A stretch of DNA of 51,063 nucleotides from Tabrizicola caldifontis (GTDB taxonomy: Bacteria > Pseudomonadota > Alphaproteobacteria > Rhodobacterales > Rhodobacteraceae), in assembly GCF_004762095.1 (NCBI RefSeq), contig NZ_SIJH01000019.1, forward strand, positions 1-51,063, read 5' to 3'. Below, piece after piece: positions 2,414 through 17,934 of this stretch; within the stretch, counting starts at the first letter, position 1; each line of letters begins with the position of its first letter. A program made the translations under genes and the position numbers. A model generated the notes under the pieces. The model had not been told where the DNA came from, made no database searches, and worked only from the letters and a program-made list of their open reading frames with translations.

Positions 2414-2857
2414 CTAGCGATTGTAGCGGATGAAAGGCGTCTGCCTGCCGATCCGGTCATACAGCCGCCGACCGGCTTCGTTGAAGTGCTGGGTCAGCCA
2501 GTACACGGCGGGCGTGCCGTTGGCATCGGCTGCGGCATAGACTGCCTCGATAAGGCGGCGGCCAAGTCCGGTGCCGCGTGCGGCAGGGTCGACGTAGAGA
2601 TCCTGGAGGTAACAGACGTTCTCGACCTTCCAACAGTGCCGGTGGAACAGATAATGCGCCAGCCCCATCGCGCGCCCATCAACCTCGGCAATCAGGGCGT
2701 TGAAATCCTGCGGATCGTCGCCCAACAGGCGCGCAAAGGTGGTGGCATAGACCACCTCGGGCACCGTGGTTTCGTAATAGTCAAGATAACCCGTCCACAG
2801 ACGCCGCCAATCGGTTTCGTCGGTGGCACGCAGCGGGCGGATGCTGACCTCGGGCAT
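2414..2857 (-). CDS. GNAT family N-acetyltransferase
   Basis: The 147-residue protein is a single GNAT domain that would transfer an acetyl group from acetyl-CoA to an amine. It starts MPEVSIRPLRATDETDWRRL, has the central strand YLQDLYVDPAARGTGLGRRL with the acetyl-CoA loop (RGTGLG), and the C-terminal VYWLTQHFNEAGRRLYDRIG. I chose the ATG at 2857 because GGAGGGG lies just upstream; a longer frame to 2965 would overlap the binding-protein gene. It is the last gene of the HyuB-to-importer operon, 62 bases after the binding-protein stop, so it may acetylate an amino product of that pathway. The substrate is unknown. Confidence 0.8.
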   Translation of the reverse strand: MPEVSIRPLRATDETDWRRLWTGYLDYYETTVPEVVYATTFARLLGDDPQDFNALIAEVDGRAMGLAHYLFHRHCWKVENVCYLQDLYVDPAARGTGLGRRLIEAVYAAADANGTPAVYWLTQHFNEAGRRLYDRIGRQTPFIRYNR

Positions 2858-2919
2858 GTTCCCCTCCGACAGGAAGGCCGGCCCTGAACGCGCGGGGCCG
2901 GCCATGCCTTGGCTGTGCT

Positions 2920-4098
2920 TTACTTCATCAGGTCGGCAACCGGAATGGGCGAGGAGATCGTCCATTCATCGACCACGCCCGGCTTGCCGTTGTTCGTTTC
3001 GACGATCAGGTAGCGGGCCCGGTTCTGGTGGTGCAGTTCGCTGGTGAAGGTGCGTGGGCCGAAGAGGGTAGGTTCATCGACCATCTTTTCCAGCTCTGCC
3101 ACAACGGCGCTGGTCTCGGTCGTGCCGGCACGCTCGACGGCCTTGGCCCAGACGTCGATCATCACATAGCCCGGATAGGTGTATTGCGTGGCCGGCGGCG
3201 CACCGGTCACTTCGGTGTATTTCGCGTTGAACTCGTTCACCGCGGGGTTCGGGTCGTCGCCATAGATCGAGCCCTGAACCGGCACGTAGAAGTTCGACAG
3301 GTCCGGCACCGCAGACAGCCAGTAGCTGCCATCCACGCCCGAACCGTTCAGGATCATCGAGTTGATGCCCGCAGCGCGCAGCTGCTTGATGGCCGAAACC
3401 GCGCCCGGCATCATGGTGCAAAGCATGATCGCATCGGGCTCTTCAGGCAGTGACTTGATCCGGGTGATCTGCGCAGCGATCGAGGCGTCCTCGTTCAGGA
3501 AGGTATCCTCGCCGACCAGCTTGGCCTCGGGCAGTTGCGGCAGCATCCAGTCGAAGCCGTCGCAGATGCCTTTGTTGTATTCGGTCCAGGTGTCCAGAAG
3601 GCGGTAGAATGTCCGGGCCTCTTTCTTGTTGTAGGCCCATTCCGCCATGGTTGCGCCCTGAACGGCAGCCAGGACCGAAGCCGAGAAGGAGTTCGGCCCG
3701 ACACCCTGGATGCCGGCCTTGATCGATTCGGCGCAGAGGAAGAACGAGATCAGGCCATTCGATTCCGCCGCCAGCGCGGCGGGGGCGCCAAAGTCGTAAT
3801 CGCAGGAGACCACGACCATGTCTGCGCCTTGGTCGATGACGGAAAGGCCAGCCTTTGCGCCTTCGGCCCGGTCGGTCTTGGTGTCGGCCTTCACCACCTC
3901 GATCGGCTTGCCCAGAAGGCCGCCGGCCTCGTTGATTTCCGCGATGCGGATCATCGCCGCGTCCTGCGCGGGCTTGTCATAGGCCTGCATGAAGCCGGTC
4001 TCGGCCGTGGCGAAGCCCACGATGATGCGGTCGTCATCCGCAAGGGCCGCGCTGGAAAGGCACGTCGTGGCGGCAAGGATTGCTGTCAGTTTCTTCAT
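2920..4098 (-). CDS. Branched-chain amino acid-type ABC transporter substrate-binding protein
   Basis: The 392-residue periplasmic protein starts with a signal peptide (MKKLTAILAATTCLSSAALA, cleavage near residue 20) and then a type I periplasmic binding fold of the LivK/Peripla_BP_6 kind. This includes INEAGGLLGKPIEVV near residue 55 and ILNGSGVDGSYWLSAVPDL near residue 255. It would deliver a substrate to the two permeases encoded upstream. A GGGAG ribosome site precedes the ATG. It follows the second permease by 23 bases. Relatives bind amino acids, amides, urea or aromatic acids. The linked HyuA/HyuB genes suggest a cyclic amide or its derivative, which is inference. Confidence 0.88.
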   Translation of the reverse strand: MKKLTAILAATTCLSSAALADDDRIIVGFATAETGFMQAYDKPAQDAAMIRIAEINEAGGLLGKPIEVVKADTKTDRAEGAKAGLSVIDQGADMVVVSCDYDFGAPAALAAESNGLISFFLCAESIKAGIQGVGPNSFSASVLAAVQGATMAEWAYNKKEARTFYRLLDTWTEYNKGICDGFDWMLPQLPEAKLVGEDTFLNEDASIAAQITRIKSLPEEPDAIMLCTMMPGAVSAIKQLRAAGINSMILNGSGVDGSYWLSAVPDLSNFYVPVQGSIYGDDPNPAVNEFNAKYTEVTGAPPATQYTYPGYVMIDVWAKAVERAGTTETSAVVAELEKMVDEPTLFGPRTFTSELHHQNRARYLIVETNNGKPGVVDEWTISSPIPVADLMK

Positions 4099-4121
4099 CG
4101 TTCAACTCCCGTTGGTTGGTT

Positions 4122-5171
4122 TCAGTCCGTTCCCGGTTCGACCGGTTTTTCCGTCCGGGCACGCAGCCCGGTCAGTTCGCTGTTGCCCATGATTCCCGAT
4201 GGCCGGAACATGAGGATGAGGATCATTACCACGCCCAGTGCGATTTCCTGCACGCCGCCCGGCAGGGCGAAGGTGCTGGCGCCCACCTGCACCCCGGCCT
4301 CGAGCCAGCGCAGAACCTGGATGAGGCTGGACAGGATCAGCACACCCAGCACGGCGCCCGACAGGCTGCCCATGCCGCCAACGACCAGCATCGAAAGGGT
4401 GGTGAAAGTCAGTCCAAGATAGAAGGTATCGGGCGTCACAAGGCCGATGGAATGGGCATAAAGCGCGCCCCCTGCCCCCATGATCGCGCCCGAGATCACG
4501 AACGCAATCAGCCTCACGCGGGGGATGTTGATGCCGCTGGCGGCGGCGGCCGTGGGTTCGTCACGCGCGGCACGCAGCGCAAGGCCATGGCGACTGATCG
4601 AGAAGGCCCAGGCCACGAAAACCGCCAGAATCGCGGCGATCATGTAAGGCCAGATCGAGCGGACGATCGGAATCCCAACGACCGAGGAGGTCGCGGCCGT
4701 GACGCTGCTCCAGTTGGAATAGATGGCGTTGACCATCGCCAGCATCGCAAAGGTCGCAATCGACGCCGCGATGCCCGACAGGCGCATGAGAACGGCACCA
4801 AAGACAAGGGCCCAGAAGGCCGCGAAGGTTCCGCCCGCAAGCGCCGCCGCCCAGAAGGGAATCTCCATCTGCATCAGCCAGTCGGGCAGGCCGGGCATGG
4901 CGGTGCCCTTCATCATCGGCTTGATCGTCGTCCAGGCCGCGACATAGCCGCCAAGACAGGCAAAGGCGATGTGGCCAAAGCTGATGACGCCGGAATTGCC
5001 GATGAAGGTGTAAAGTCCGACGACGAACACCACCTGAAGGAAGATGTCGATCACGGTCTGATTGAATGGCCGAGACCCGACGAACCATGCGATCAGGGCG
5101 AAGGCCAAGAGTAGCGCCGAAAGGATCAGCGGCGTGGCGATGGTGCGGCGCAGGATCGAGTAACGGGCCAT
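4122..5171 (-). CDS. Branched-chain amino acid-type ABC transporter permease (LivM-like)
   Basis: The 349-residue inner-membrane protein has about eight to ten hydrophobic segments and the permease loop features of LivM: GNSGVISFGHIAFACLGGY near residue 60 and VVGGMGSLSGAVLGVLI near residue 270. The start codon overlaps the stop of the upstream permease as TGATG, pointing to translational coupling. The C-terminus ends in FRPSGIMGNSELTGLRAR, the usual cytoplasmic tail. It forms the membrane pore with the partner permease at 5171-6085 and is driven by the two ATPases of the same operon. Confidence 0.88.
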   Translation of the reverse strand: MARYSILRRTIATPLILSALLLAFALIAWFVGSRPFNQTVIDIFLQVVFVVGLYTFIGNSGVISFGHIAFACLGGYVAAWTTIKPMMKGTAMPGLPDWLMQMEIPFWAAALAGGTFAAFWALVFGAVLMRLSGIAASIATFAMLAMVNAIYSNWSSVTAATSSVVGIPIVRSIWPYMIAAILAVFVAWAFSISRHGLALRAARDEPTAAAASGINIPRVRLIAFVISGAIMGAGGALYAHSIGLVTPDTFYLGLTFTTLSMLVVGGMGSLSGAVLGVLILSSLIQVLRWLEAGVQVGASTFALPGGVQEIALGVVMILILMFRPSGIMGNSELTGLRARTEKPVEPGTD

Positions 5172-6085
5172 CACACGCGCTCCTTCGTGCCGCGCGCCGC
5201 AAGCAGGCCTTGCGGGCGGAAGATCAGGACGAGGATGACCGCGCCATAGACAAAGGCATCGCGGAAGGCGCGGGCATCGGGCGGCAGGATCACCTGCATC
5301 ACCGTGGCGATCGCCCCCAGCGCAAAGCCCGCGATCACTGCCCCGGCCAAGCTGCCCATGCCGCCGATCACGGTGGCAATGAAGGCCATCAGCATCACGG
5401 ATGCGCCCATCATGATGTTTGCCGTTCCGGTCTGGCTTCCCAAGATCAGCGCGATTGCGGCAGCCAGCGCGCCCGACAGCGCGAATGCCCCCATGATCAC
5501 GCGGTTCGCCCTGACCCCCAGCATCCGCGCCATGGTGAAATTTTCGGCCGCGGCCCGCATCTCAAGGCCAAAGCGGGTGCGGCGCAGAAAGGCGGTCAGG
5601 CCGATCAGGACGGCGATGGTCACAAGGATGGTGATCAGCTGCAGAAGCGGGATACGCGCGCCCAAGATCTCGACAGGCTGACTGAGGCCTGGCAGCAGCG
5701 AGATGCTTTTCGGTCGGCTGGAGAACAGCATCAGCAGGAAATACCGGATCACGAAGCCAAGAGCAAACGAGGCGATCATCATCGTTGCGGGGTTCGCGCG
5801 GCGGAAGCGGCGGAACACCACCACCTCGGACAGCACGGAAAGCCCCGCGCCCACGGCAAGGGTGAAGGGAATCAGCAGGAACCAGGGGAGGTTGCCCGCG
5901 AAGATGATCGCGACCGCATCGACCGAGGGCCAGAGCAGCGCGAAGACGCAGAAGGCGATCACGTCGCCATGCGCGAAATTGACCAGCCGCATCACGCCGA
6001 AGATCAGCGCGATGCCAAGCGCGCCAAGAGCGTAAAGCGACCCCAGCGACAGCGCGTCGAAGATGACCTGCATCAACCCGCCCAT
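5171..6085 (-). CDS. Branched-chain amino acid-type ABC transporter permease (LivH-like)
   Basis: The 304-residue membrane protein is of the LivH type. It starts MGGLMQVIFDALSLGSLYAL, then has GIALIFGVMRLVNFAHGDVI near residue 27 and ATVIGGMGSLAGAVIAGFAL near residue 240, with a FRPQGLLAARGTKERV tail. The ATG at 6085 was chosen because it overlaps the upstream ATPase stop as TGATG; a TTG one codon earlier is possible. It pairs with the LivM-like permease to form the importer channel. Confidence 0.88.
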   Translation of the reverse strand: MGGLMQVIFDALSLGSLYALGALGIALIFGVMRLVNFAHGDVIAFCVFALLWPSVDAVAIIFAGNLPWFLLIPFTLAVGAGLSVLSEVVVFRRFRRANPATMMIASFALGFVIRYFLLMLFSSRPKSISLLPGLSQPVEILGARIPLLQLITILVTIAVLIGLTAFLRRTRFGLEMRAAAENFTMARMLGVRANRVIMGAFALSGALAAAIALILGSQTGTANIMMGASVMLMAFIATVIGGMGSLAGAVIAGFALGAIATVMQVILPPDARAFRDAFVYGAVILVLIFRPQGLLAARGTKERV

Positions 6086-6819
6086 CAATGTTCCCCATAT
6101 CCGAAGTATGCAGCCTGCATCGCCTCGCTTTGCCCAAGCGCGCGGGCATCGCCGTCCAGCACGATTTCGCCCCCCCGCATCAGCATCATCCGCCCACCCA
6201 CCATCATCGCGCGGGTGGAAGACTGTTCGACGATCAAGAGCGTCAGCTTGCGTTCGGCGCGAAGCGCGATCAGCCGTTCGTAGACCTGATCGGTGATGTT
6301 CGGCGCAAGGCCAAGGCTGGGTTCGTCGATCGCCACCAGACGCGGCGTCGTCATCAGCGCCCGGCCGATGACCAGCATCTGCTGCTGGCCACCCGACAGA
6401 AGCCCCGCCTGGCTGTGACGCCGCTCCTTCAGGATCGGGAAGGTGGCATAGACGGCCTCAAGCTCGCTGGCTGCCCGCGCCCGCCAGCCGCGGGTGCCGG
6501 AATGCATGCCGGTGCCGACCATCAGGTTTTCCTCGATCGTCAACGAGCCGAAAACGTCACGCCCCTCGGGCACCATGGACAGGCCCAGACGCGCGATGTC
6601 CTCGGGCGCCCGGCCGGTGATGTCGTGATCGGCAAAGTCGATCCGGCCCCCGGCAGGGGGTGTGACCCCGGCGATGGCCCGCAGAAGCGAGGATTTCCCT
6701 GCGCCGTTCGGGCCGGTAATGAACAGGATCTCACCCTCGGCAAGGGTGAAGGTCACGCCGCGAACGGCCGTAAGCCGCCCGTAACGGACCGAGATGTTGG
6801 ACAGGGCCAGCAGGCTCAT
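6085..6819 (-). CDS. ABC transporter ATP-binding protein (LivF-like)
   Basis: The 244-residue ATPase powers the importer. Walker A is GPNGAGKSSLL (about residues 36-46), the signature is LLSGGQQQMLVIGRAL and Walker B is LVAIDEPSLGLAP. A C-terminal SEAMQAAYFG closes the protein as in LivF. The start at 6819 overlaps the stop of the LivG-like gene as ATGA. A longer reading to 6960 would give an Arg-rich non-coding-looking extension and was rejected. Confidence 0.9.
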   Translation of the reverse strand: MSLLALSNISVRYGRLTAVRGVTFTLAEGEILFITGPNGAGKSSLLRAIAGVTPPAGGRIDFADHDITGRAPEDIARLGLSMVPEGRDVFGSLTIEENLMVGTGMHSGTRGWRARAASELEAVYATFPILKERRHSQAGLLSGGQQQMLVIGRALMTTPRLVAIDEPSLGLAPNITDQVYERLIALRAERKLTLLIVEQSSTRAMMVGGRMMLMRGGEIVLDGDARALGQSEAMQAAYFGYGEH

Positions 6820-7568
6820 GCCTCTACCTCCAGCACGGGAAGATCGGTGTCGGCGGCGCTGCCCATGTAGGCGTGACGCACCTTCTCGCTGGCGCGGATC
6901 ACATCGGGCGGGCCGGCCTCGATTACCGCACCGCTGTCGAGGACGACAATGTGGTCGCAAAGGCCCAGCACCAGGCCCACGTTGTGTTCGATCAGCAGGA
7001 CACCACAGCCCATTTCCCCGGCGATGCGGCGGATCAGGGCGGAAAGTTCGGCCGCCTCCTGTGCGCTCATCCCGGCGGCGGGTTCGTCAAGCAGCAGGAA
7101 CTTCGGCCGTCCCATCAGCGCCCGACCGATGGCGACGCGGCGTTCGTCGGTATAGGGCAGCGCGCCCGCGATCCGGCCCGCCAGGGGGGCGATGCCAACC
7201 CAGTCGAGCATCACCTCGGCCTCGGCGATCGCTGCCGCGCGCGACTGGCCCAGGCCGACGCCGGTGACCTCCAGATTGTCGATCACCGGCAGGTCACGGA
7301 ACAGCCGCCCGCCCTGAAAGGTGCGGGCAATGCCGCGGCGGCGAACCTCATGCGGCTTCAGTCCCGAAAGGGGCTGTCCGTCCAGCAGGACAGCCCCTTC
7401 CGTTGCGGTCTGAAACCCGGTCAGCACATTGACAAGCGTGGTCTTTCCAGCCCCGTTCGGGCCGATCAGCCCGACGATCTGACCGGGCGACACTGTCAGG
7501 TTCACCCCCGACAGCGCCTTCAGCCCGGCGAAGGCCACCGATACCTTGTCAGCGCGCAGGTCGTTCAT
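6816..7568 (-). CDS. ABC transporter ATP-binding protein (LivG-like)
   Basis: The 250-residue ATPase is the second motor subunit. Walker A is GPNGAGKTTLVNVLTGF near residue 36. Walker B is FLLLDEPAAGMSAQEA, and the signature region reads LPYTDERRVAIGRALMG, which diverges from LSGGQ as LivG proteins often do. AAGKT-type spacing and the long insert before the signature are as in LivG. The ATG has a strong AAAGGAG site and overlaps the HyuA stop as ATGA. The operon therefore runs HyuB, HyuA, LivG, LivF, LivH, LivM, binding protein, GNAT. Confidence 0.9.
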   Translation of the reverse strand: MNDLRADKVSVAFAGLKALSGVNLTVSPGQIVGLIGPNGAGKTTLVNVLTGFQTATEGAVLLDGQPLSGLKPHEVRRRGIARTFQGGRLFRDLPVIDNLEVTGVGLGQSRAAAIAEAEVMLDWVGIAPLAGRIAGALPYTDERRVAIGRALMGRPKFLLLDEPAAGMSAQEAAELSALIRRIAGEMGCGVLLIEHNVGLVLGLCDHIVVLDSGAVIEAGPPDVIRASEKVRHAYMGSAADTDLPVLEVEA

Positions 7569-9655
7569 CTTGCTCCTTTCCGGTCGCGGGTGATGAGGTA
7601 GGAACCGCTGGCATCAAGCCGCGCCGTCCAGCCCGGTTCGATCACGATGGTTGTGGTGACCTCTTCGATCACCGCCGGCCCCTTTATCACGGCATCGGCC
7701 CCAAGCGGCGTTCCGTCATAGATCGGCGTCCTTGTCCGCTTGCCATCGGCGCTGAACACCGCATCGCGGTGGCCCTTCAGCGCCTTCTGCGGCGAAACGC
7801 CCTTGCCGATGCTCATGCGGGCGGGCTTGTCTACGACGCCATAAAGCGTGCTTTCGATGTTCACCACTTCCACGGTCGAGGCAGGCTCGGCATAGGTGTA
7901 AAGCTCCTTGTGGCGCTTGTGGAAGGCGTCCTTGATCTTGCCGATCGACCTTGCATCGACCTTGAATGTGCCGATTTCGACGGTGCATTCGTGCACCTGC
8001 CCGACATAGCGCATGTCGAGGCTGCGCTTCGTCACGATATCCCTGGCCTTGAAGCCGTCAGCCTTCAGATGCGCCACGCCCTGCGCCTCGATCTGGTTGA
8101 ACAGCTCGTCGATCCGGGCATAGGCCGCGTCGTTGTCCAGCCGCAGGGGGGCGGTGGCCATGTAGTTGTATTTCACGTCGCTGATGATCTGGCCGAAGGC
8201 ACAAAGACCCGAGGCAAGCTTGGGCAGGACGATGGTGTCGATCCCCATGGCCGAAGCCAGTGCCGTGATATGCGCTGCCGTCGCCCCGCCCGCACCGACC
8301 AGCACGAAGTCGCGCGGGTCGTATCCGCGCTCCACGGTCACCCGGCGGATGCCATTCACCATGTTGGCGTTGACGATGGTGAACATCCCATAGGCGGCAC
8401 GTTCCACGCTCATGCCCAAGGGATCGGCGAGGTTCGCCTTGATCGCCTGATGCGCCTTTGCCGCATCAAGCGGCAGGCGCCCGCCCACCAGCCCGTCGGG
8501 GTTCAGATAGCCCAGTACCAGGTTCGCATCCGAAACGGTGGGAAGCTTGCCGCCCTGCCCATAGCAGGCCGGTCCGGGATCCGAGCCCGCCGATTGCGGG
8601 CCCATCTGCATCAGCCCCATCTCGTCGATCCAGCCGATCGACCCGCCGCCCGCGCCCAGGGTTTCCACCTGGATCATCGGCACGCCGATCCGGTAACGCA
8701 GGAAGTCGATGTTCTTGTTGATGTTCGTCGACCCGTCCTTGGTCAGCGTGATGTCGAAGGACGTGCCGCCCATGTCCACGGTGATGACGTTGCGGTGTCC
8801 GAAGGGTTCGCACACATACTGACCCGCTGCCGGTGCCGAGGCAGGACCCGAATTGATGGCATAGACCGAGCGGTCCGTCATCGCCTGGCCGATGGCAAGC
8901 CCGCCGTTCGACTGATAGTAGCGGACCGGCTGCTTCGCCCCGAGGCTGCGGAAGTAGCTGTCCACCGCCTCGACATAGCGCTTCATGATCGGCGCAAGAT
9001 AGGCGTTCACCACCGCCGTCGAGGTGCGGGTGTATTCCCGGACCTGCGGATAAAGTTCGCTGCCCAGGGTCAGGACCACGCCCGGAAGCATTTCGCGCAC
9101 GATTTCCCCCGCGCGGCGTTCGTGGTCGGGGTGCAGCACCGACCAGACGAAGCTGATCGCCACCGTCTCCACCCCTTCGGCGCGGAAAAGTTCGCAAGCC
9201 GCGCGCACGTCGGCTTCGTTCAGGGGCTCGCGCACGCTGCCGTCCGACAGCACCCTTTCGCGCACGCCCCGGCGCAGATACCGCGGCACCAGCATCGTGG
9301 CGGGCGGATATTCCGGGTCGTAGCGGTAGCCGTCCTCCTTGTGACCCAGCCGGATTTCCAGGCTGTCCTCATGTCCGGCGGTGCAGATCAGGCCGGTCTT
9401 GGCCCCCTTGTGGGTGATCAGAGCGTTCAACCCCACCGTCGTTCCGTTGATGCACAGGTCGCAGTTCGACACCACCTTCTCTGCGGGTATGCCAAGATCC
9501 TCGGAGATCAGCGCCAGGCCGTTGCGGATTGCCTGTGTCGGGTCCTGCGGGGTGGAGAGCGCCTTGTAAAGCCGCACCTGCCCGGATTTGTCGGCCAGAA
9601 CGAAGTCGGTGAAGGTGCCGCCCGCGTCTATGCCCAGTCGGTAATCGGATTTCAT
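7565..9655 (-). CDS. hyuA: Hydantoinase/oxoprolinase family protein, HyuA subunit
   Basis: The 696-residue protein belongs to the HyuA/N-methylhydantoinase A family, which works with HyuB in ATP-dependent opening of cyclic amides (5-oxoproline, N-methylhydantoin) or, in relatives, in ATP-dependent carboxylation of ketones. The N-terminus has the actin-like phosphate loop LGIDAGGTFTDFVLADK. Further landmarks are VITVDMGGTSFDI (around residue 295) and GAGGGSIGWIDEMGLMQMGP. The start at 9655 follows AAGGGGGAAC; an upstream in-frame codon at 9733 would overlap HyuB and add non-family residues. HyuB ends 13 bases upstream. Chemistry within the family cannot be settled by sequence, but the Pxp genes nearby favour lactam or imide substrates. 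Confidence 0.88.
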   Translation of the reverse strand: MKSDYRLGIDAGGTFTDFVLADKSGQVRLYKALSTPQDPTQAIRNGLALISEDLGIPAEKVVSNCDLCINGTTVGLNALITHKGAKTGLICTAGHEDSLEIRLGHKEDGYRYDPEYPPATMLVPRYLRRGVRERVLSDGSVREPLNEADVRAACELFRAEGVETVAISFVWSVLHPDHERRAGEIVREMLPGVVLTLGSELYPQVREYTRTSTAVVNAYLAPIMKRYVEAVDSYFRSLGAKQPVRYYQSNGGLAIGQAMTDRSVYAINSGPASAPAAGQYVCEPFGHRNVITVDMGGTSFDITLTKDGSTNINKNIDFLRYRIGVPMIQVETLGAGGGSIGWIDEMGLMQMGPQSAGSDPGPACYGQGGKLPTVSDANLVLGYLNPDGLVGGRLPLDAAKAHQAIKANLADPLGMSVERAAYGMFTIVNANMVNGIRRVTVERGYDPRDFVLVGAGGATAAHITALASAMGIDTIVLPKLASGLCAFGQIISDVKYNYMATAPLRLDNDAAYARIDELFNQIEAQGVAHLKADGFKARDIVTKRSLDMRYVGQVHECTVEIGTFKVDARSIGKIKDAFHKRHKELYTYAEPASTVEVVNIESTLYGVVDKPARMSIGKGVSPQKALKGHRDAVFSADGKRTRTPIYDGTPLGADAVIKGPAVIEEVTTTIVIEPGWTARLDASGSYLITRDRKGAR

Positions 9656-9668
9656 CTCATGTTCCCCC

Positions 9669-11462
9669 TTATTTCGCGGCCATGGCGGCGCGACGACGCG
9701 CCCGCAGCTCTTCGGTTGCCTTGATGTCCACATGCAGTGTGGCGGGGTCGGTGATGATGACTCCGTAGTCCTCCCTTGCTCCGTCGATGGAAACGAGACC
9801 GTTCTTTACGTCCCAGACCACCTTTTCAACGGCCCGGTCCATCGGGTTGCCGTAGCCGCCGCCGCCGGGGTTCATGTTGGTGATCCGATCGCCCGGCTTG
9901 ATGACCTTGATGACGTTCTCGCGGATGGTTTCGGTTCTTTCGCCTTGCACCAGTTCCAGCCGCCCGACCTTGGTGTCGATGATCGTGCTGGCCGCGCCCG
10001 CCGCGCCCACCGCAGGGATGCGGCGGCCTTCCCCGAAGGTGATGAAGGTCATTTCATCGTTCAGCGGTTCCACTTCCCAGGCGGTGCCGCTGCCCCCGCG
10101 GAACTTGCCCGCGCCCCCGCTGTCGGTCATCAGGCTGTAGCGGTGGATGATGATCGGGTAGCTGTATTCCAGAAGCTCCACGTCGCCCGACGTCAGCGCG
10201 CCGAAGCAGCATTCCGGCCCGCAGGCGTGCCATCCGTCCTGCGACGGCGTGGCCCCCGCGCCCGAGATGATGGTGGCCAGCACCATCGTGACGTATTCCT
10301 CGTTGTGGCGCTTGTCCCAGCCGGCGATGTTCAGCCCGTTGGCATGGCCCCAGCTGGCCGAAACCTTGGACGGCACGGCCTTTTCGAAGGCCAGCCGGAC
10401 CGCGTCGGTCAGCGTCTCCATCGGGGTGGTGGTGCAATTCATGTGCGGCGCGGGTTCGGCCGCGTTGCAGATCGTGCCCTTGGGGCCGAAATCCACCGTC
10501 ACGCAGCGGTAGAGCCCCTCGTTGTAGGGGGGCGGCAACTGGGCGAACATCATCAGGCCCAGATAGACGCCAGAATGGCTGTTCCCCTCGTAGCTGTTGA
10601 TGAAATAGGGGATCTGCGGCGGGCTCGAGATGGCGATATGGCAGCTGTCGCCCTTGATCGTGACAGTCGCCTTGATCTCGAAGTCGCCGTAGCCGTGACC
10701 GGCATCCTCCAGGATCGCCGAGCCCTCGTAGGTGCCGTCGGGTACCGCTGCGATCAGGCTGCGCATCTGGCGCTCGGCCATGTCGAGCAGCGTTTCGATG
10801 CAGGCATCGACCTGTTCTTCGCCGTATTTCTCCAGCATGGCCAGAAGCGCGCGCTCGCCGACCTGGCAGGCACCGATCAGGGCATTGAAATCGCCTTCCT
10901 GGTCACGCCGGGCGCGCATGTTGGTCAGAAGCAGGTTCAGCACATCCTTGCGTGGGGTGCCACGGTCCCAGACCTTGACCGGGGGGATGCGCAGGCATTC
11001 GGCATAGATTTCCTTGGCGTTGGGATTGTAGCCAGCCGGCACCGGCCCCCCCACGTCGGTCAGGTGGCCCTTGCAGACCGTCCAGTATTTCAGTTTCCCC
11101 TTCCAGAACACGGGCTTGTAGAAACAGGTGTCGATCGCATGGCTGCCGCCCCAGGCCGGATCGTTGTGAATGATGAGGTCGCCTTCATGGATGTCGCCCT
11201 CGAAATACTTCGCCACAACCTTCATCGCCGGGATCAGCGAGCCTAGGTGGATCGGAATGTCCTGCCCCTGCAGGATCATCTCCGGCCGGTGGTTGAAGAG
11301 CGCGGTCGAATAGTCGTGTGCCAGGTTGAACACCGACGATCGCGCGGTCTTTTCCAGGCTCAGCGTCATCTCGCGCTGCGTCGTTTCAAGAATGCCCCGG
11401 ACCACCGACAGGGTGATCGGGTCCACCTCGACCTTCTTCCTTTTCCTTGGCGTGCCCGCCAT
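9669..11462 (-). CDS. hyuB: Hydantoinase B/oxoprolinase family protein, HyuB subunit
   Basis: The 597-residue protein is the partner of HyuA. It starts with a basic tract, then VDPITLSVVRGILETTQREM, the usual N-terminal signature of HyuB. HLGSLIPAMKVVAKYF and a glycine-rich C-terminal MNPGGGGYGNPMDR also match the family. The ATG at 11462 was chosen over a GTG one codon earlier because GGGAGGG then sits seven bases away. It is the first gene of the operon. The promoter must lie in the 245-base gap shared with the divergent AraC gene. Confidence 0.88.
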   Translation of the reverse strand: MAGTPRKRKKVEVDPITLSVVRGILETTQREMTLSLEKTARSSVFNLAHDYSTALFNHRPEMILQGQDIPIHLGSLIPAMKVVAKYFEGDIHEGDLIIHNDPAWGGSHAIDTCFYKPVFWKGKLKYWTVCKGHLTDVGGPVPAGYNPNAKEIYAECLRIPPVKVWDRGTPRKDVLNLLLTNMRARRDQEGDFNALIGACQVGERALLAMLEKYGEEQVDACIETLLDMAERQMRSLIAAVPDGTYEGSAILEDAGHGYGDFEIKATVTIKGDSCHIAISSPPQIPYFINSYEGNSHSGVYLGLMMFAQLPPPYNEGLYRCVTVDFGPKGTICNAAEPAPHMNCTTTPMETLTDAVRLAFEKAVPSKVSASWGHANGLNIAGWDKRHNEEYVTMVLATIISGAGATPSQDGWHACGPECCFGALTSGDVELLEYSYPIIIHRYSLMTDSGGAGKFRGGSGTAWEVEPLNDEMTFITFGEGRRIPAVGAAGAASTIIDTKVGRLELVQGERTETIRENVIKVIKPGDRITNMNPGGGGYGNPMDRAVEKVVWDVKNGLVSIDGAREDYGVIITDPATLHVDIKATEELRARRRAAMAAK

Positions 11463-11707: not shown

Positions 11708-12649
11708 ATGAAGACGACGATCACCACCCGCGGGGTGGATCAGGCAGCCCGCAGCCGGCACTGGCACGAAACGATCGCGCGCATCTACTTTCCGCTGGAA
11801 CTGACCTTTCACCGCCCCGAGGCCTTTGACGGTGAGCTGACATCCTGGGATCTGGGCGGGGTATCGATCTCGCGCCTGACCTCGGACGCGCTGCTTTACC
11901 GCCGTCTGCCCAAGCATTTCCGCGAACCCGGACCCGAGGAATTCCTGGTCACCCTGCCCGCGCGGTCCGAAGTCCGCTTTGCACAGGCAGGAAAGGAGGT
12001 ACGGGCCAACCCCGGCGCCTTCTTCATTGAGCGCAGCCACGAGCCGTACGAATTCAGCCACGCCGAACCTGCCGACCTCTGGGTGATGAAGCTGTCGAAG
12101 GACATGCTGGGCGGTCGCATCCGTGCGCCGGACCGGTTCTGCTCGCTTCAGTTCGATGCAACGAACGGGGCGAACGGCCTTTTCGTAGACATGGTCCACC
12201 TGATCCCGCAGCGCTATGACGCGATGAGCGAAGAGACCCGCGCCATCGTGGGCCGCCAGCTGGTGGACCTTCTGGCGCTGGCCATCCAGTCGGACGAGCG
12301 GGTTCTGACCTCGGGCGCCTCGACCGTGCGCGCCGCGCACCTGGCGCGCATCGAGGCTTTCGTGCGCCGGAACATCGACGACCCGGACCTCGGGCCGGAA
12401 GAGGTGGCGGCAGGCTGCGGAATTTCGGTGCGCTATCTGCACGAGCTGTTGCGCGACACGAACACCACCCTGGGCCAGTGGATCCGCGACACGCGGCTGC
12501 AGGCAGCGATGGAGGATCTGAAGAACCCGGCCGACCGCCGCGCCATCGGCGAGATCGCGTATGCGCGGGGCTTTACCGACCAAGCGCAGTTCAGCCGTGC
12601 CTTCCGGGCCCGGTTCGGCGTGACGCCGAAAGAGGCCAGGGGCAGGTAG
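11708..12649 (+). CDS. AraC family transcriptional regulator
   Basis: The 313-residue regulator has an N-terminal AraC-binding-type domain (residues about 1-190, with the strand FLVTLPARSEVRFAQAGKEV) and a C-terminal double helix-turn-helix (about 205-313). The latter includes EEVAAGCGISVRYLHELLRD and the hallmark IAYARGFTDQAQFSRAFRAR followed by FGVTPKEAR. The ATG at 11708 has GGGGGAAGG upstream; the longer frame from 11447 overlaps HyuB and was rejected. It is divergent to the HyuB operon and convergent with PxpC, so it is the likely activator of one or both. Confidence 0.88.
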   Translation: MKTTITTRGVDQAARSRHWHETIARIYFPLELTFHRPEAFDGELTSWDLGGVSISRLTSDALLYRRLPKHFREPGPEEFLVTLPARSEVRFAQAGKEVRANPGAFFIERSHEPYEFSHAEPADLWVMKLSKDMLGGRIRAPDRFCSLQFDATNGANGLFVDMVHLIPQRYDAMSEETRAIVGRQLVDLLALAIQSDERVLTSGASTVRAAHLARIEAFVRRNIDDPDLGPEEVAAGCGISVRYLHELLRDTNTTLGQWIRDTRLQAAMEDLKNPADRRAIGEIAYARGFTDQAQFSRAFRARFGVTPKEARGR

Positions 12650-12651
12650 GA

Positions 12652-12725: not shown

Positions 12726-12732
12726 GCGTGCA

Positions 12733-13701
12733 TCATTTCCCCAGATGATGACGCACGCGTTGCAGGGCGGCCTGCCGGTCGTGCCGGGCCGCCAGTGCCT
12801 GTTCCATGCTGACCTCGACAAAACGTGCCGGGGCATGCGGCTGCAGCTGGCCGATCAGGTCCATGTCGGCACTGATGACGCAGCCAAGCATCATGTAGCC
12901 GCCGCCCGACACGGCGTCGCGGTGCAGAACGATGGGCTCGGTTCCGCCCGGAACCTGGATCGACCCGTAAGGATAGCAGGCATCGACGATGTTTGACGGG
13001 TTCGACCCCGCTCCGAAGGGCTGTTCGCGCGGGACGAACTCCAGCGCGGTGCCTCCGCGGAAGCGGTAGCCGATCCGGTCCGCCTCGGGCGCAACCTTCC
13101 AGGTGTCGGCGAAGAAGCGTTTGCCCGCCTCGGCCGTGATCCGATGCCAGTAAAGACCCGGCAGCATCCGCAACTCGGCCGGGTTGCCCGGCATCCGCCG
13201 CAGGGCCGCCGGCACGCTGCCCTTGCCCGCACTGCCCGCGCCCACCGGCAGTTCGTCGCCTGCCTTCAGCGCGCGTCCCTCGTGCCCGCCCAGCGCGCCC
13301 AGCGTATAGGTCGAGCGCGACCCCAACTTCAGCGGCACGTCGATCCCGCCAGAGATGGCGATATAGGCCCTGGCGCCGGACTTCAGGAAGCCGAAGGACA
13401 GCCGGTCCCCGGCCTTCACAGGAAACGCCTCCCAGCCTGCACGTTCATCGCCGTTCAGCTTCGGCGGCAGGTCCCCCCCGGTCACCGCCACCCAGGCCGG
13501 CGCGGTGAATTCCAGTTCCGGGCCCATGAACACTGCCTCCAGCACCGCCGCGCCCTCGTCGTTGCCGACCAGCATGTTGGCCACACGCAGGGCAAAGCGG
13601 TCCATGCCCCCGGAGAGGGGGATGCCCAGGTGGTAGTAGCCCGGGCGGCCAAGATCCTGCACGGTCGTCGAAAGCCCCGGAGAGATCACCTTAACGGCCA
13701 T
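12733..13701 (-). CDS. pxpC: 5-oxoprolinase subunit PxpC (biotin-dependent carboxyltransferase family)
   Basis: The 322-residue protein belongs to the PxpC/KipA/allophanate-hydrolase subunit 2 family. It starts VKVISPGLSTTVQDLGRPGY and continues YHLGIPLSGGMDRFALRVAN, both characteristic. With PxpA and PxpB it would form the prokaryotic ATP-dependent 5-oxoprolinase that converts pyroglutamate to glutamate. The same fold is the carboxyltransferase half of urea carboxylase. GGAGG precedes the ATG, which overlaps PxpB by 11 bases. The linked biotin carboxylase and carrier make a true biotin-dependent role worth considering. Confidence 0.88.
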   Translation of the reverse strand: MAVKVISPGLSTTVQDLGRPGYYHLGIPLSGGMDRFALRVANMLVGNDEGAAVLEAVFMGPELEFTAPAWVAVTGGDLPPKLNGDERAGWEAFPVKAGDRLSFGFLKSGARAYIAISGGIDVPLKLGSRSTYTLGALGGHEGRALKAGDELPVGAGSAGKGSVPAALRRMPGNPAELRMLPGLYWHRITAEAGKRFFADTWKVAPEADRIGYRFRGGTALEFVPREQPFGAGSNPSNIVDACYPYGSIQVPGGTEPIVLHRDAVSGGGYMMLGCVISADMDLIGQLQPHAPARFVEVSMEQALAARHDRQAALQRVRHHLGK

Positions 13702-14566
13702 TGAGTGCCTCCATCAGCTTGGCATTGGTCCCGGCCATGTCCTTGTTGAACTCGGAGAGCGAGAAGGTGGCGGGCCGGATCACCGGCTCGAATCGGTTCT
13801 GTTCGACCGCTTCGATAGCCGCGTCGTATTCGTCGCGGCCGATAGGCTTCCACTTGACGATGTCGCCGGGCCGGAACAGGCACATCTCGTCGCGCAGATA
13901 GGACACCTGCTGGTTCGGGTCATAGATCGGCATCGGCGTGATCCCGAACATCTGATACCCCCCCGCACCGCGCACCGAATAGATGCAGGAGAAGCAGCCG
14001 CCGTGCCCCACAGTCAGCTTGGGGGTGTCGGTTCGCGGCCGCAGGTATTTCGGCACCTGCAACTGCCGCTCCCGCTCCACCATCTGATAAAGGAAAGGCA
14101 GCCCCGCCACGAAGCCCACCATCGACACGAACCAGGGCTGGCTGGAATGGGCCTTGATGAAGTTCTCGACCGTGCCCAGCCCGTTGATCTCGGCGGCGTA
14201 TTCGAGGTCGGTCTTTGTCGGATCCTGGTGCCGCTCGCGGAATCGCATCAGCGTCTCGTGCGTCCAGGGATCCTGGTAGAAGACCGGGATCTCGATGATC
14301 CGCGTCTTGAGGCTGGCATCGGACTGTGCCGCTGCTACCTCCATCCCCTGCAACTCTTTCAGCAGGTCGTCCGGCTTGATCACGTCCGGGTCGAACTTGA
14401 CCTGAAAGCTGGCATTTGCCGGGCAGATCTCGGTCACGCCCTTGATGCCTGCGGCGCGGACCGCATTGGTCATCGACAGCGAGGTGAAGAAGGCCTCGAG
14501 CGACATGGCTTCGGAAACCTCTCCGAAGATGTGCTCATCGCCTCCGAAGCTGAAACGGATCGACAT
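13691..14566 (-). CDS. pxpB: 5-oxoprolinase subunit PxpB-like (allophanate hydrolase subunit 1 family), long form
   Basis: The 291-residue protein matches PxpB/KipI: GFVAGLPFLYQMVERERQLQ, then KYLRPRTDTPKLTVGHGGCF and an ending around YDPNQQVSYLRDEMCLFRPG. It is about 70 residues longer than the E. coli protein as I recall it. The extra length is an N-terminal region (MSIRFSFGGDEHIFGE) and a C-terminal tail of some 40 residues (FEPVIRPATFSLSEF). GGAGGGAGG lies just before the ATG. The gene follows AccC by 12 bases. The extensions may dock the biotin carboxylase or carrier, which is inference. Confidence 0.85.
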   Translation of the reverse strand: MSIRFSFGGDEHIFGEVSEAMSLEAFFTSLSMTNAVRAAGIKGVTEICPANASFQVKFDPDVIKPDDLLKELQGMEVAAAQSDASLKTRIIEIPVFYQDPWTHETLMRFRERHQDPTKTDLEYAAEINGLGTVENFIKAHSSQPWFVSMVGFVAGLPFLYQMVERERQLQVPKYLRPRTDTPKLTVGHGGCFSCIYSVRGAGGYQMFGITPMPIYDPNQQVSYLRDEMCLFRPGDIVKWKPIGRDEYDAAIEAVEQNRFEPVIRPATFSLSEFNKDMAGTNAKLMEALNGR

Positions 14567-14578
14567 GGTCCCTCCCTC

Positions 14579-15955
14579 CTACGGTTCCAGTTCCGGCAGC
14601 AGCCGAGCGGAATGGGTATCCAGCCAGCCTTCCAGCCAGCGGGTATGAACGGCATTGGCCTGAACGTGTTCGTCTTCGGCCAGTGCCAGGAACAGCGGCC
14701 TTGTGGTGCGGAGGCCCTCGATGCGGGTTTCCTTCAGGGCCCGCACAAGACGGGTGATCGCCGCCTCTCGCGTTTCGCCATGCACGACCAGCTTGGCAAG
14801 AAGCGAGTCATAGAAGGGTGGCACGGTGTAACCCGCGTAAAGCATCGATTCGAAACGCACCCCTGGCCCGCCCGGCACCCGCAGGGCCGAAACGGTTCCC
14901 GGGAAGGGTGCAAAATCGCGCGACGGATCCTCGGCGTTCAGACGCACCTCGATGGCGTGGCCGCGCGCCACGATGTCCCGCTGCTTCAGCCGCAGCGGCT
15001 CGCCCCCAGCGATGCGCAGGCCCTCGGCCACCAGGTCGATGCCGGTAATCATCTCGGTGACCGGATGTTCCACCTGGATGCGGGTGTTCATCTCGATGAA
15101 GTAGAAGCGGTCGCTTTCGTCGTCGTAGAGATATTCGATGGTCCCGGCACCAGAATAGCCGACCGCCCTGGCAAGGCGCACGGCGCTTTGGCACAGATCG
15201 TCGCGCACACGGTCGGACAGGGCCCGCGAGGGCGCCTCTTCCCAGACTTTCTGGCGCCGGCGCTGCAGGGAACATTCGCGCTCCCAGCAATGCACGGCAT
15301 CGGTGCCGTCGCCCAGCACCTGCACCTCGATGTGGCGCGCCTTCGTGACGACCTTTTCCATGTAGAGTCCGCCATCGCCGAAGGCGGCCAGCGCCTCGGC
15401 CGCGGCCTGGGGGAAGGCAGCCTCGAACTCGGCTAGGTCGTTCGCGATGCGGATGCCCCGCCCGCCCCCGCCGGCCGCTGCCTTGATCATCACCGGAAAG
15501 CCCGTGTCGATCAGGATGTGCCGGGCTTCGTCGATGTCGGCCACGCGGCCCATGCTGCCCGGCACCACGGGAACCCCTGCCGCATGGGCAGCCGAGCGCG
15601 CGGCAACCTTGTCGCCCATCGTGCGGATCGCGTCCCCGGACGGACCGACGAAGATCAGCCCAGCCGCCTTGCAGGCATCGGCGAAATCGGCGTTCTCGGC
15701 CAGAAAGCCATAGCCGGGATGCACACTGTCTGCCCCCGTATCGGCGGCTGCCTTCAGGATAGCGGCCTGATTCAGATAGCTTTTCTTCGCCGCCGGCGGT
15801 CCGATGTTCACGGCCTCGTCAGCGATCTGGACGTGCAGCGCCTCGCGGTCCGCATCGGAATAGACTGCAACAGTCGCGATGCCCAGATCCTTCGCCGCAC
15901 GGATCACGCGCACGGCGATCTCTCCGCGGTTGGCGACCAGAAGCTTCTGCAGCAT
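14579..15955 (-). CDS. accC: Acetyl-CoA carboxylase-type biotin carboxylase
   Basis: The 458-residue enzyme would use ATP and bicarbonate to carboxylate biotin on a carrier protein. It has the family length and landmarks: LLVANRGEIAVRVIRAAKDL at the N-terminus, AAGGGGRGIRIA in the ATP-grasp loop, ERECSLQRRRQKVWEEAPS near residue 235 and FIEMNTRIQVEHPVTEMITG near residue 285. The start at 15955 overlaps the carrier stop as TGATG. A longer frame to 16309 is unrelated in sequence. Its place between PxpA/AccB and PxpB/PxpC suggests a dedicated copy rather than the housekeeping fatty-acid enzyme. Confidence 0.92.
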   Translation of the reverse strand: MLQKLLVANRGEIAVRVIRAAKDLGIATVAVYSDADREALHVQIADEAVNIGPPAAKKSYLNQAAILKAAADTGADSVHPGYGFLAENADFADACKAAGLIFVGPSGDAIRTMGDKVAARSAAHAAGVPVVPGSMGRVADIDEARHILIDTGFPVMIKAAAGGGGRGIRIANDLAEFEAAFPQAAAEALAAFGDGGLYMEKVVTKARHIEVQVLGDGTDAVHCWERECSLQRRRQKVWEEAPSRALSDRVRDDLCQSAVRLARAVGYSGAGTIEYLYDDESDRFYFIEMNTRIQVEHPVTEMITGIDLVAEGLRIAGGEPLRLKQRDIVARGHAIEVRLNAEDPSRDFAPFPGTVSALRVPGGPGVRFESMLYAGYTVPPFYDSLLAKLVVHGETREAAITRLVRALKETRIEGLRTTRPLFLALAEDEHVQANAVHTRWLEGWLDTHSARLLPELEP

Positions 15956-16188
15956 CAATCCACCTCGGCCAGCACGGCGCCCGCCATCACGGGCTCCTCG
16001 TTGTCGGCAACGAAGCGGATGTTCGTGCCGGCCACTTCGGACCGCACCTCGTGGAAGGATTTCATCACCTCGATCAGCCCGATCACATCGCCCACGGCGA
16101 CGGAGTCGCCATCGGCCTTGAAGGGCGGCTTGTCGGGGGCAGAAGCGCGGTAGAACGTGCCAGGAAGCGGAGACTGGATCTGGGCCAT
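15955..16188 (-). CDS. accB: Short biotin carboxyl carrier protein
   Basis: The 77-residue protein is a bare biotinyl domain. GLIEVMKSFHEVRSEVAG contains the EVMKS motif, whose lysine carries biotin. It starts MAQIQSPLPGTFYRASAP, the typical first strand, and lacks the Pro/Ala-rich N-terminal half of a housekeeping AccB. GAGGA lies upstream of the ATG. It is encoded 11 bases after PxpA and overlaps AccC. It is the natural partner of the AccC next to it. Confidence 0.9.
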   Translation of the reverse strand: MAQIQSPLPGTFYRASAPDKPPFKADGDSVAVGDVIGLIEVMKSFHEVRSEVAGTNIRFVADNEEPVMAGAVLAEVD

Positions 16189-16199
16189 GGGAAATCCTC

Positions 16200-16922
16200 T
16201 CAGGTGTAGGGCTGGACGGCCGCCCGCACCGCGCGGGCGATGTCGATGGCATTCGGCGTGTCGGAATGGATGCAGATCGAATCGCAGCGCACGGGGATGT
16301 CCGACCCATCCGTTGCCGTGCCCTTGCCTTCCGTGATCGCCCGGATGCAGCGCGCAGCCATCAGCGCGGGATCCTTGGCGTCATGCTCGCGCGTGACGAT
16401 CAGGCTGCCGTCGGGGCGGTATTCCAGATCGGCATAGAACTCTGCAATGAAGCCGTGCCCCCGGGCAGGATAGATCTTTTCATGCAGCGTGCCAGTCATG
16501 CCCAGAAGCGGCACCTTGAACACATCTGCCGCGTCGCAGACCGCGTGGGCGATCTCTTCCTGACGCGCGGCCATTCCGTAAAGGCTGCCGTGCGGCTTTA
16601 TGTGGTTCAGCTCCATCCCCTCGGCCTTCAGGAAGCCGCAAAGCGCGCCCACCTGGTAGATGATGCAGTTGGCCATTTCCTCGCGGCCCATCTTCATCTC
16701 GCGTCGGCCAAAGCCCTGAAGGTCGGGCAGGCTGGGATGGGCGCCAACCTTCACCCCGTGCTTCTTCGCCAGCCGCACCGTGGCGCGCATATGGTCGAAG
16801 TCGCTGGCGTGAAAGCCGCAGGCAACATTGGCAATGTGGATCATGGGCATGATTCCCGCATCGTCGCCCATGCGCCAGAGCCCGAAGCTTTCCCCCATGT
16901 CGCAGTTGATCGTGACCGGCAT
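16200..16922 (-). CDS. pxpA: 5-oxoprolinase subunit PxpA (LamB/YcsF family)
   Basis: The 240-residue protein has the LamB/YcsF start VTINCDMGESFGLWRMGDD and the conserved IANVACGFHASDFDHM, then HIKPHGSLYGMA and EFYADLEYRPDGSLI. Length is normal for PxpA. Within the PxpABC complex it is thought to carry the lactam-binding site. It is the first gene of the operon, with GTAGGGGGG upstream of the ATG and a 106-base divergent promoter region shared with the LysR regulator. Confidence 0.92.
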   Translation of the reverse strand: MPVTINCDMGESFGLWRMGDDAGIMPMIHIANVACGFHASDFDHMRATVRLAKKHGVKVGAHPSLPDLQGFGRREMKMGREEMANCIIYQVGALCGFLKAEGMELNHIKPHGSLYGMAARQEEIAHAVCDAADVFKVPLLGMTGTLHEKIYPARGHGFIAEFYADLEYRPDGSLIVTREHDAKDPALMAARCIRAITEGKGTATDGSDIPVRCDSICIHSDTPNAIDIARAVRAAVQPYT

Positions 16923-16976
16923 CGCCCCCCCTACTGCTACTCGATCCCGCCGCAGGTTCGCCTCGGGATGGCTTCA

Positions 16977-16998
16977 TTGCAAATTCGAATTATTGCGA
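16977..16998. promoter_or_regulatory. Candidate LysR-type operator between PxpA and its regulator
   Basis: An AT-rich island in an otherwise GC-rich divergent gap holds the quasi-palindrome TTGCAAATTCGAATTATTG followed by CGA, centred on TTCGAA. The two arms TTGCAA and TTGCGA are offset by two bases. LysR regulators typically bind such imperfect dyads close to a divergent gene. The flanking CGATACGATATC at 16996-17007 adds a short direct repeat of CGATA. Confidence 0.4.
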
Positions 16999-17028
16999 TA
17001 CGATATCAAAAAATCAGATAGGCGTTCG

Positions 17029-17934
17029 GTGTCCCTTACCATCCGGCAACTTCGCTATTTCATCGCCGCGGCCGAGACCGGTCAGGTCAGCCATGCCGCA
17101 ATGGAACTGAACATCTCGCAGTCGGCGGTGACGGCGGGGATCAAGGGGCTGGAGGCGACGCTGGGCGCCAGATTGCTGGCGCGAAACGCACATGGCGTAT
17201 CCGTGACCCCCGAAGGTGCGCGTTTCCTTTCGCGGGCCAAGGCCATAATCGCAGCGGTCGAGGAAGCCACCCGCAGCCCCCTGGGCGAGGAGACCCAGGT
17301 CACCGGCCGTCTGCGCCTGGGGCTGACCTACACGGTCGCGGGCTATTTCATGGCCCGCCACTACGCTGCGTTCCGCCGCATCTACCCCGGCATCACGCTG
17401 GAACTGTCCGAACAGCCCCGCGCGGCGATCGAGAATGCGCTGGTCTCTGGCGGTCTTGACCTTGCGGTGATGCTGACCTCGAACCTGAGCAACACGGAAG
17501 ACCTTGCCTCGGAAACCCTGTTCCGCTCGCGCCGGCGGCTGTGGCTGCCGTCGGATCACCGCCTGCTGGCTGCGCCCGAAATCAGCCTGCACGACGTGGC
17601 GCAGGAACCCTATGTGATGCTGACCGTGGACGAGGCCAGCCGGACCGCAGGGCGCTACTGGGACAGATACGGTCTGGTCCCGAAAACGGTCTTCACGACA
17701 TCGTCAGTGGAAGCCGTACGGTCGATGGTGGCCGCGGGCATGGGAGTGACCATCCTCAGCGACATGGTCTATCGACCGTGGTCTCTTGAAGGGCAACGGA
17801 TCGAACAGCGCCAGACGATAGAGCCGATACCCTCGATGGACGTCGGTCTAACCTGGTCGAACGCGCGGCCCCTGTCGGTTCCCGCCCGTGTGTTCAGTGC
17901 TTTCATCACGGCGACCCTGGGATCGGGCAGCTGA
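17029..17934 (+). CDS. LysR family transcriptional regulator
   Basis: The 301-residue protein starts with the winged helix-turn-helix: LTIRQLRYFIAAAETGQVSH, then SQSAVTAGIKGLEATLGARL and HGVSVTPEGARFL. A two-lobed effector domain follows (about residues 90-301). GTG at 17029 is the best start because it sits two codons before the conserved LTIRQLRYF; the ribosome site is weak. The upstream in-frame ATG at 16828 lies inside PxpA on the other strand. Divergent placement implies control of the pxpA-accB-accC-pxpB-pxpC operon, probably with the pathway substrate as co-inducer. Confidence 0.88.
   Translation: MSLTIRQLRYFIAAAETGQVSHAAMELNISQSAVTAGIKGLEATLGARLLARNAHGVSVTPEGARFLSRAKAIIAAVEEATRSPLGEETQVTGRLRLGLTYTVAGYFMARHYAAFRRIYPGITLELSEQPRAAIENALVSGGLDLAVMLTSNLSNTEDLASETLFRSRRRLWLPSDHRLLAAPEISLHDVAQEPYVMLTVDEASRTAGRYWDRYGLVPKTVFTTSSVEAVRSMVAAGMGVTILSDMVYRPWSLEGQRIEQRQTIEPIPSMDVGLTWSNARPLSVPARVFSAFITATLGSGS

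Follow-up and report, generated by a model that had tools for sequence, protein, structure and literature searches.

What a bacterium might gain by encoding, next to one importer, two unrelated families of enzymes that are known to open cyclic amides with ATP is the question raised by a locus of Tabrizicola caldifontis (NCBI RefSeq assembly GCF_004762095.1). It lies at positions 2,414–17,934 of contig NZ_SIJH01000019.1, of which positions 1–51,063 were analysed; "the window" below means this whole stretch of 51,063 nucleotides. The first family is represented by a HyuA/HyuB pair, here called CapAB, and the second by PxpA, PxpB and PxpC, which are encoded together with a small biotin carboxyl carrier protein (BCCP; AccB) and a biotin carboxylase (BC; AccC) and are referred to with them as the module. 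The original prediction had placed both families beside an importer, and the family matches and the neighbourhood agree. The locus probably imports lactams and opens them with two unrelated energy-driven enzymes, one of which looks biotin-dependent. To explain this arrangement we lean towards a lactam-utilisation locus in which two parallel, unrelated ring openers, both predicted to be driven by ATP and bicarbonate, stand behind one importer.

Co-occurrence of CapAB and the module

Linkage of the two operons is beyond chance. A family sample of 248 genomes and a class sample of 384 genomes were used, the source genome being left out of the co-occurrence tests. CapB lies above its cut-off in 14 of the 248 family genomes and a PxpB of the window type in 23; the module is present in seven of 13 CapB genomes (six adjacent, and G046 on another contig). 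In the class sample all five CapB relatives hold it (four adjacent, and G274 about 16 kb apart), the module being present in 19 of the 384 genomes overall. The p values, 2e-5 for the family and 2e-7 for the class, ignore kinship, and two of the five class relatives share a genus, a third genome of which (G442) has the module without CapB. The idea that the two operons might never co-occur in relatives is contradicted by both samples. PxpA alone was rejected as a marker of linkage, since some PxpA is found in 170 of the 248 family genomes.

Window-type PxpB also occurs in 44 of 55 CapB-anchored loci of named genomes, and four of the other 11 are on pieces shorter than 6 kb. Twelve loci (L032, L033, L034, L036, L037, L038, L039, L040, L049, L061, L158 and L174) carry CapB-CapA-PxpA-AccB-AccC-PxpB-PxpC in one direction, which looks like one operon. 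The order PxpA...PxpC-CapB-CapA is found at L169 and, with no AraC match between, at L023, L051 and L057; a further order has CapBA, then a LysR gene, then the module. The gene-neighbourhood survey that had been suggested thus finds the association recurring in several gene orders. A second, distant HyuA, HyuB or both (about 27–38% identity) stand beside CapAB or the module alone at L032, L033, L034, L036, L039, L040, L042, L049 and L061, and also at L162, L176, L189 and L208, so that HyuAB of other types are likewise among the neighbours of the module.

Kinship of the two predicted ring-opening systems

HyuA and HyuB both exceed the cut-offs of the NCBIfam caprolactamase equivalog models (Table 1), and for this reason a hydantoinase or 5-oxoprolinase reading of the pair was dropped in favour of caprolactamase. 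The nearest solved relative of both CapA and CapB is 6yra. When aligned, CapB keeps the Asp-His-Asp-His metal tetrad of 6yra_B (residue numbers from PMC8453981, which, like all papers below, is cited from excerpts), and CapA carries the ATP motifs DAGGTFTD, DMGGT and GSDPGP. Equivalog scores, tetrad, motifs and the capB-capA order are likenesses to CapAB of Pseudomonas jessenii and OplBA of P. putida. The former converts caprolactam to 6-aminocaproate and does not convert 5-oxoproline (PMC6061476); OplAB is strongly active on delta-valerolactam, with a trace on gamma-butyrolactam, and needs bicarbonate to form any product (PMC11033972), while deletion of oplBA from an engineered strain abolished growth on caprolactam (PMC11879879). 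The P. putida lactam operon has an AraC-type regulator, OplR, which has been built into lactam sensors (PMC11683335); the AraC-type regulator of the present locus is likened to OplR by family only, not by sequence. What differs here is that CapAB is accompanied by a Liv-type importer and a biotin module, neither of which the excerpts cited mention in the Pseudomonas clusters. HyuAB would accordingly be lactam openers of the known caprolactamase-like kind.

Elsewhere in the source genome (G000:C23:228504-230021) a second HyuB-family match lies in a 1413-aa frame, with one TGA reported, which is long enough for a fused HyuAB. A dimethylformamidase-like large subunit (L031:14621-16627) was seen beside CapAB without the module, and a haloarchaeal plasmid locus (L206) has a CapB relative (57%) beside an aspartate/glutamate racemase and acyl-CoA genes.

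Judged by its scores and trees, the Pxp-Acc module differs from the usual 5-oxoprolinase, and its carboxyltransferase (CT) pair is of urea-carboxylase kin. Membership of the canonical PxpABC was rejected: PxpB and PxpC fall below the equivalog cut-offs (TIGR00370, 75.7 of 145.55; NF045499, 226.5 of 500) and branch away from E. coli PxpBC. PxpC meets the domain model TIGR00724 (267.2 of 230.2), and PxpA passes two subfamily models (NF003814, Table 1, and NF003816, 228.6 of 213) and reaches none of three equivalog PxpA models. In trees that were midpoint-rooted and both drew a long-branch warning, the 69 window-type rows of PxpC (106 rows in all) make up one side of a branch (100/99), with two bacterial urea carboxylases and L173 as the sister group (100/99) and with E. 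coli PxpC and the common Rhodobacteraceae PxpC outside both, and 24 window-type rows of PxpB (41 in all) share one branch side with three urea-carboxylase-side rows (100/99).

BC, BCCP, CT_A_B and CT_C_D, the parts of urea carboxylase and urea amidolyase, are all found in the module, with urea carboxylase its nearest group in the PxpC tree and on the same side in the PxpB tree. Unlike urea amidolyase, the module is split into four proteins, has a BC of the AccC type and has PxpA in place of allophanate hydrolase, no partner of the latter type being seen in it. The model for one-polypeptide urea carboxylase (TIGR02712, 1303.85) is not reached by AccC (527.2), PxpC (228.3) or PxpB (108.8). With the PxpABC 5-oxoprolinases (E. 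coli; C. glutamicum pxpTABC) the module shares the three protein families, and its PxpA retains the alignment residues conserved at at least 95%. It differs from them in the urea-carboxylase side of its PxpB and PxpC, in having AccB and AccC in the operon, in the BioY gene beside some module loci and in the replaced arginines of PxpA.

PxpA accompanies the module in 93 of 97 module loci (some of which were fetched twice, L019 and L066 being one place), and the other four (L009, L021, L024 and L029) begin inside the module. Forty PxpA loci from family genomes without CapB were picked, non-randomly, from the top and lower listed matches: 37 are without an AccB/AccC partner, though one of them shows an AccC match of 23% some 5 kb away; an AccC-like gene of 48–49% identity is present at L072 and L073, and a module of the window type only at L095.

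As far as sequence can tell, the parts of a biotin-dependent carboxylase are complete: a BC with catalytic residues, a BCCP with the biotinyl-lysine motif and a CT pair. AccB is a separate ORF (open reading frame) of 77 aa, not fused to AccC, and carries EVMKSF; the E-x-M-K pattern is present in 92 of 93 AccB rows of module loci, the remaining row reading EIMK. Of 12 E. coli AccC positions compared, 11 are kept and the other, position 236, is Arg for His. Three further AccC-like genes occur in the source genome, none closer than 54% identity, so that the locus AccC is an extra copy, in agreement with the private biotin carboxylase of the original prediction. A recurrent gene behind pxpC specifies the biotin importer BioY (Pfam 139.4 bits, cut-off 25), present in 17 of the 97 module loci against none of 62 other loci, and in eight of 41 sampled module relatives. 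A large subunit of a molybdenum hydroxylase (xanthine/aldehyde oxidase type) was seen behind module and BioY at L170:5016-7457 and L172:11308-13842.

PxpB and PxpC match the "allophanate hydrolase subunit" 1 and 2 chains of PDB 9yx5, an entry known to us by its chain names alone, which also holds a biotin-dependent acyl-CoA carboxylase alpha3 chain. A literature search for a complex of AccA3 with allophanate-hydrolase-type subunits found no paper on 9yx5, and none joining biotin with PxpABC or lactam opening was found in a search that was thin on subscription journals. The function of the biotin-type module is undescribed in the literature searched. The claim of an undescribed system therefore survives for the module and lapses for HyuAB, which is caprolactamase-like.

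PxpA of the window has Leu166, Thr177 and Gly116 in place of Arg, Arg and Asn. The 41 sampled module relatives fall into a "high" group with window-like PxpA (25) and a "low" group (16). Position 166, directly after the conserved Asp165, is Arg in 41 of 44 PxpA outside the module and in 19 of 19 of the low group, and Leu in 46 of 46 of the window group; position 177 is Arg in 41 of 44 outside the module and Thr in 42 of 46 of the window group, the low group having mostly lost the Arg. A substrate that lacks the carboxylate of 5-oxoproline would be in keeping with the loss of these arginines. With the inertness of characterised CapAB on 5-oxoproline in the excerpts of PMC6061476, this loss upholds the view that the locus is not one of simple pyroglutamate salvage. 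CapAB is adjacent in 10 of the 25 high-group relatives and in none of the 16 low-group ones (Fisher p=0.003); plasmids L199 and L205, with low-group PxpA and CapAB, are exceptions.

Parallel or sequential ring opening

In the explanation that we prefer, the Liv-type ATP-binding cassette (ABC) importer would take up small neutral lactams. CapAB would use ATP and bicarbonate to turn six- and seven-membered lactams (2-piperidone, caprolactam) into omega-amino acids, as its relatives do. AccC would spend ATP to carboxylate biotin on the small AccB; PxpBC, a split CT of the urea-carboxylase type, might transfer the CO2 to the ring nitrogen of the lactam, as urea carboxylase does to urea; and PxpA might hydrolyse the weakened ring C-N bond, the carbamate then shedding CO2. 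The substrate of the module would likely be a lactam poorly handled by CapAB, such as 2-pyrrolidone. In some relatives genes for a class-III transaminase and a semialdehyde dehydrogenase lie beside one or the other enzyme, and their products could convert the amino acid to the diacid. More tentatively, and with doubt slightly outweighing conviction, we suggest that AccBC-PxpBC-PxpA might represent a new class of biotin enzyme, a "lactam amidolyase" opening lactams by N-carboxylation and hydrolysis, like urea amidolyase, and a recurrent alphaproteobacterial module that partners caprolactamase across ring sizes.

The original prediction had instead been of a multi-step pathway for an imported cyclic amide with two ring or amide bonds; in such a pathway CapAB would open one bond, and the second would be opened or removed by the Pxp-biotin module. 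The strong co-occurrence and the repeated joining in one direction, in either order, are what such a pathway would lead one to expect, and NCS1 permeases ("allantoin permeases") adjoin CapAB alone (e.g. L200, L213), the module alone (L211) or both (L205). Each enzyme is, however, also found alone beside the same importer. In Aureimonas (L207) a binding protein 77% identical and LivG/F/H/M 68–85% identical to those of the window lie beside the module with no CapAB nearby, and binding proteins 65–68% identical lie beside CapAB without the module at L041, L059, L062, L064 and L067 (L041 and L062 being seemingly one place).

The same is true of the downstream genes, a GabT-like transaminase and an aldehyde dehydrogenase being seen in some loci with CapAB alone and in some with the module alone. 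Beside the module, L179 has a gamma-aminobutyric acid (GABA) transaminase (PRK07495, 821 of 724) and a succinate semialdehyde dehydrogenase (SSADH; TIGR01780, 720 of 646); L180 and L182 have pairs matching these, and L161 has an SSADH. CapB loci can have as neighbours a GabT-like transaminase (in 5 of 18 such loci without the module), an aldehyde dehydrogenase (which at L059 the model does not class as an SSADH, 371.7 of 646), an acyl-CoA dehydrogenase or a CoA-transferase. A stretch of Paracoccus sp. MA has aldehyde dehydrogenase (annotated SSADH), gabT, acyl-CoA dehydrogenase, CoA-transferase, CapBA and permease genes.

Since each enzyme occurs alone beside the same importer and a similar transaminase, two parallel openers are favoured over sequential ones. 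Moreover, in 31 of the 41 sampled relatives the module has no CapAB next to it (G046 and G274 hold CapB farther off), six of the 13 family CapB relatives have no module anywhere in the genome, and the module is present without a CapB match in G442, whereas two genomes of its genus have both. We regard the sequential pathway as unlikely, and the idea of one compound with two ring or amide bonds as unsupported.

Less probable still is that the biotin module is a carboxylase for some other nitrogen compound (urea-, guanidine- or nucleobase-like) that is merely housed near CapAB. The branching of PxpB and PxpC with urea carboxylase would agree with this, as would the CUT2-like and NCS1-type importers and the molybdenum hydroxylase beside some modules, but there is no partner of the allophanate-hydrolase type, PxpA, of a lactam family, is a near-constant member, and the module is associated with CapAB and, in three of the 41 relatives, with other HyuAB pairs. 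Ordinary 5-oxoproline salvage by PxpABC beside an unrelated transporter-CapAB operon is very improbable: this PxpA passes general subfamily cut-offs and is the sole PxpA match of its genome, but the equivalog misses and tree positions of PxpB and PxpC, the replacement of both arginines, the extra AccBC, the BioY of some loci and the co-occurrence p values all speak against it.

As to which lactam goes to which of the two parallel openers, the pattern fits a module that takes a five-membered lactam to GABA and a CapAB that yields longer amino acids, a division that is weakly supported. Several points weigh against the preferred explanation. SSADH stands beside the module in only four of the 41 sampled relatives, three of them of the low PxpA group with Arg166, which leaves little to favour 2-pyrrolidone as the substrate of the window subtype. 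The split by ring size is blurred by the CapAB-only Paracoccus locus, whose aldehyde dehydrogenase carries an SSADH annotation. A fixed glutarate pathway for CapAB was rejected and kept as a leaning, the acyl-CoA dehydrogenase and CoA-transferase neighbours of CapB scoring below glutarate-specific cut-offs. Importer types differ among loci (Liv, CUT2-like, Pot-like, NCS1). The strain of L207, a plasmid-borne case, may hold CapAB elsewhere, and the one-operon orders of some relatives could mean joint action on one compound. No BioY lies beside the window's own module, and the deep branches of the trees are long, with only two urea carboxylases included.

The binding protein of the importer reaches neither the LIV model (50.8 of 477) nor the urea models (47.0 of 494.8 and 46.6 of 492.75), and among solved structures has distant LIV-like matches only, which give no hint of its ligand.

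Layout of the locus and wider context

All genes named in the original prediction are present, in the order claimed and with AraC and LysR divergent as described (ORFs and profile matches; Table 1). On the minus strand run capB(hyuB)-capA(hyuA)-livG-livF-livH-livM-binding protein-GNAT and, as a second run, pxpA-accB-accC-pxpB-pxpC. The AraC gene diverges from capB, with 245 nt between, and converges with pxpC; the LysR gene diverges from pxpA. The liv genes are closely packed and the GNAT gene is 62 nt behind that of the binding protein; in the liv and pxp runs most adjacent genes have short overlaps or gaps of no more than a few dozen bases. The starts given for CapB, CapA, LivF, GNAT, AraC and LysR are the likely ones, slightly shifted from those of the longest ORFs. 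An AraC match adjoins CapB in 49 of the 55 CapB loci, GNAT at at least 56% identity is found in only 12 of the 55, and LysR at at least 44% identity in 70 of the 97 module loci.

Table 1. Predicted genes of the locus, with window coordinates and the matches on which the assignments rest.
Feature	Position	Strand	Evidence
GNAT acetyltransferase, accessory	2414..2857	-	PF00583
Liv-type periplasmic binding protein	2920..4098	-	PF13458, 179.6 bits
livM-type permease	4122..5171	-	PF02653
livH-type permease	5171..6085	-	PF02653
livF-type ABC ATPase	6085..6819	-	PF00005; top NCBIfam UrtE and LivF, both below cut-off
livG-type ABC ATPase	6816..7568	-	PF00005; top NCBIfam LivG, 214 bits, below cut-off 362
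capA-like hydantoinase A subunit, ATP-binding	7565..9655	-	NF050156, 1255.7 bits, cut-off 1000
capB-like hydantoinase B subunit	9669..11462	-	NF050157 (caprolactamase beta), 1097.4 bits, cut-off 1000
AraC-family regulator	11708..12649	+	PF14525 and PF12833
pxpC-like carboxyltransferase (CT_A_B), urea-carboxylase side	12733..13701	-	PF02626, 291.8 bits; tree
pxpB-like carboxyltransferase (CT_C_D), urea-carboxylase side	13691..14566	-	PF02682, 139 bits; tree
Extra AccC-like biotin carboxylase	14579..15955	-	NF009471, 748.9 of 686
Small AccB-like biotin carboxyl carrier, 77 aa	15955..16188	-	ORF with EVMKSF
pxpA-like hydrolase (LamB/YcsF)	16200..16922	-	PF03746, 303.3 bits; NF003814, 275.4 of 226
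LysR-family regulator	17029..17934	+	PF00126 and PF03466

Beside the locus a cupin and SnoaL protein is encoded (window 1176-2333, plus strand), and SnoaL/NTF2-like proteins recur near the module at L019, L025, L030, L051, L056, L176, L183 and L207. A protein of about 410 aa without a Pfam match (L044:13966-15195), whose cluster is found in 18 loci, lies near a Pot-type importer and GntR; a distant copy (26%) is annotated as an extracellular solute-binding protein. On the other side of the locus, window 19170-20540 (plus strand) encodes a beta-CASP metallo-beta-lactamase-fold protein with sub-threshold matches to the type VII Cas14 model (394.6 bits, cut-off 800) and aCPSF1 (276.6, cut-off 580.2), probably a nuclease of the wider beta-CASP family.

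A fungal parallel exists for part of the system. Fungal lamB serves the use of a lactam, 2-pyrrolidinone, and YcsF, of the PxpA family, is related to LamB (PMC3412718); lamA and lamB of Aspergillus nidulans are under AmdR control together with GABA genes (PMC8016842). The module PxpA shares its family with this LamB, in a bacterial and not a fungal setting. Five- and six-membered lactams are very stable nylon monomers, and a paper of 2023 states that their mild enzymatic opening had not been reported earlier (PMC11033972). Whether the split CT genes of the urea-carboxylase type in many bacteria have a biotin or another role was left undecided in a survey of biotin carboxylases from 2011 (PMC3199775), and this can be tested directly on the present module, because these genes form one operon with a biotin carrier and carboxylase, with BioY in some cases. 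Database records name the module PxpA "5-oxoprolinase subunit PxpA", which may mislead on function. If the proposed explanation is true, biotin enzymes would gain a further natural task, the opening of lactams.

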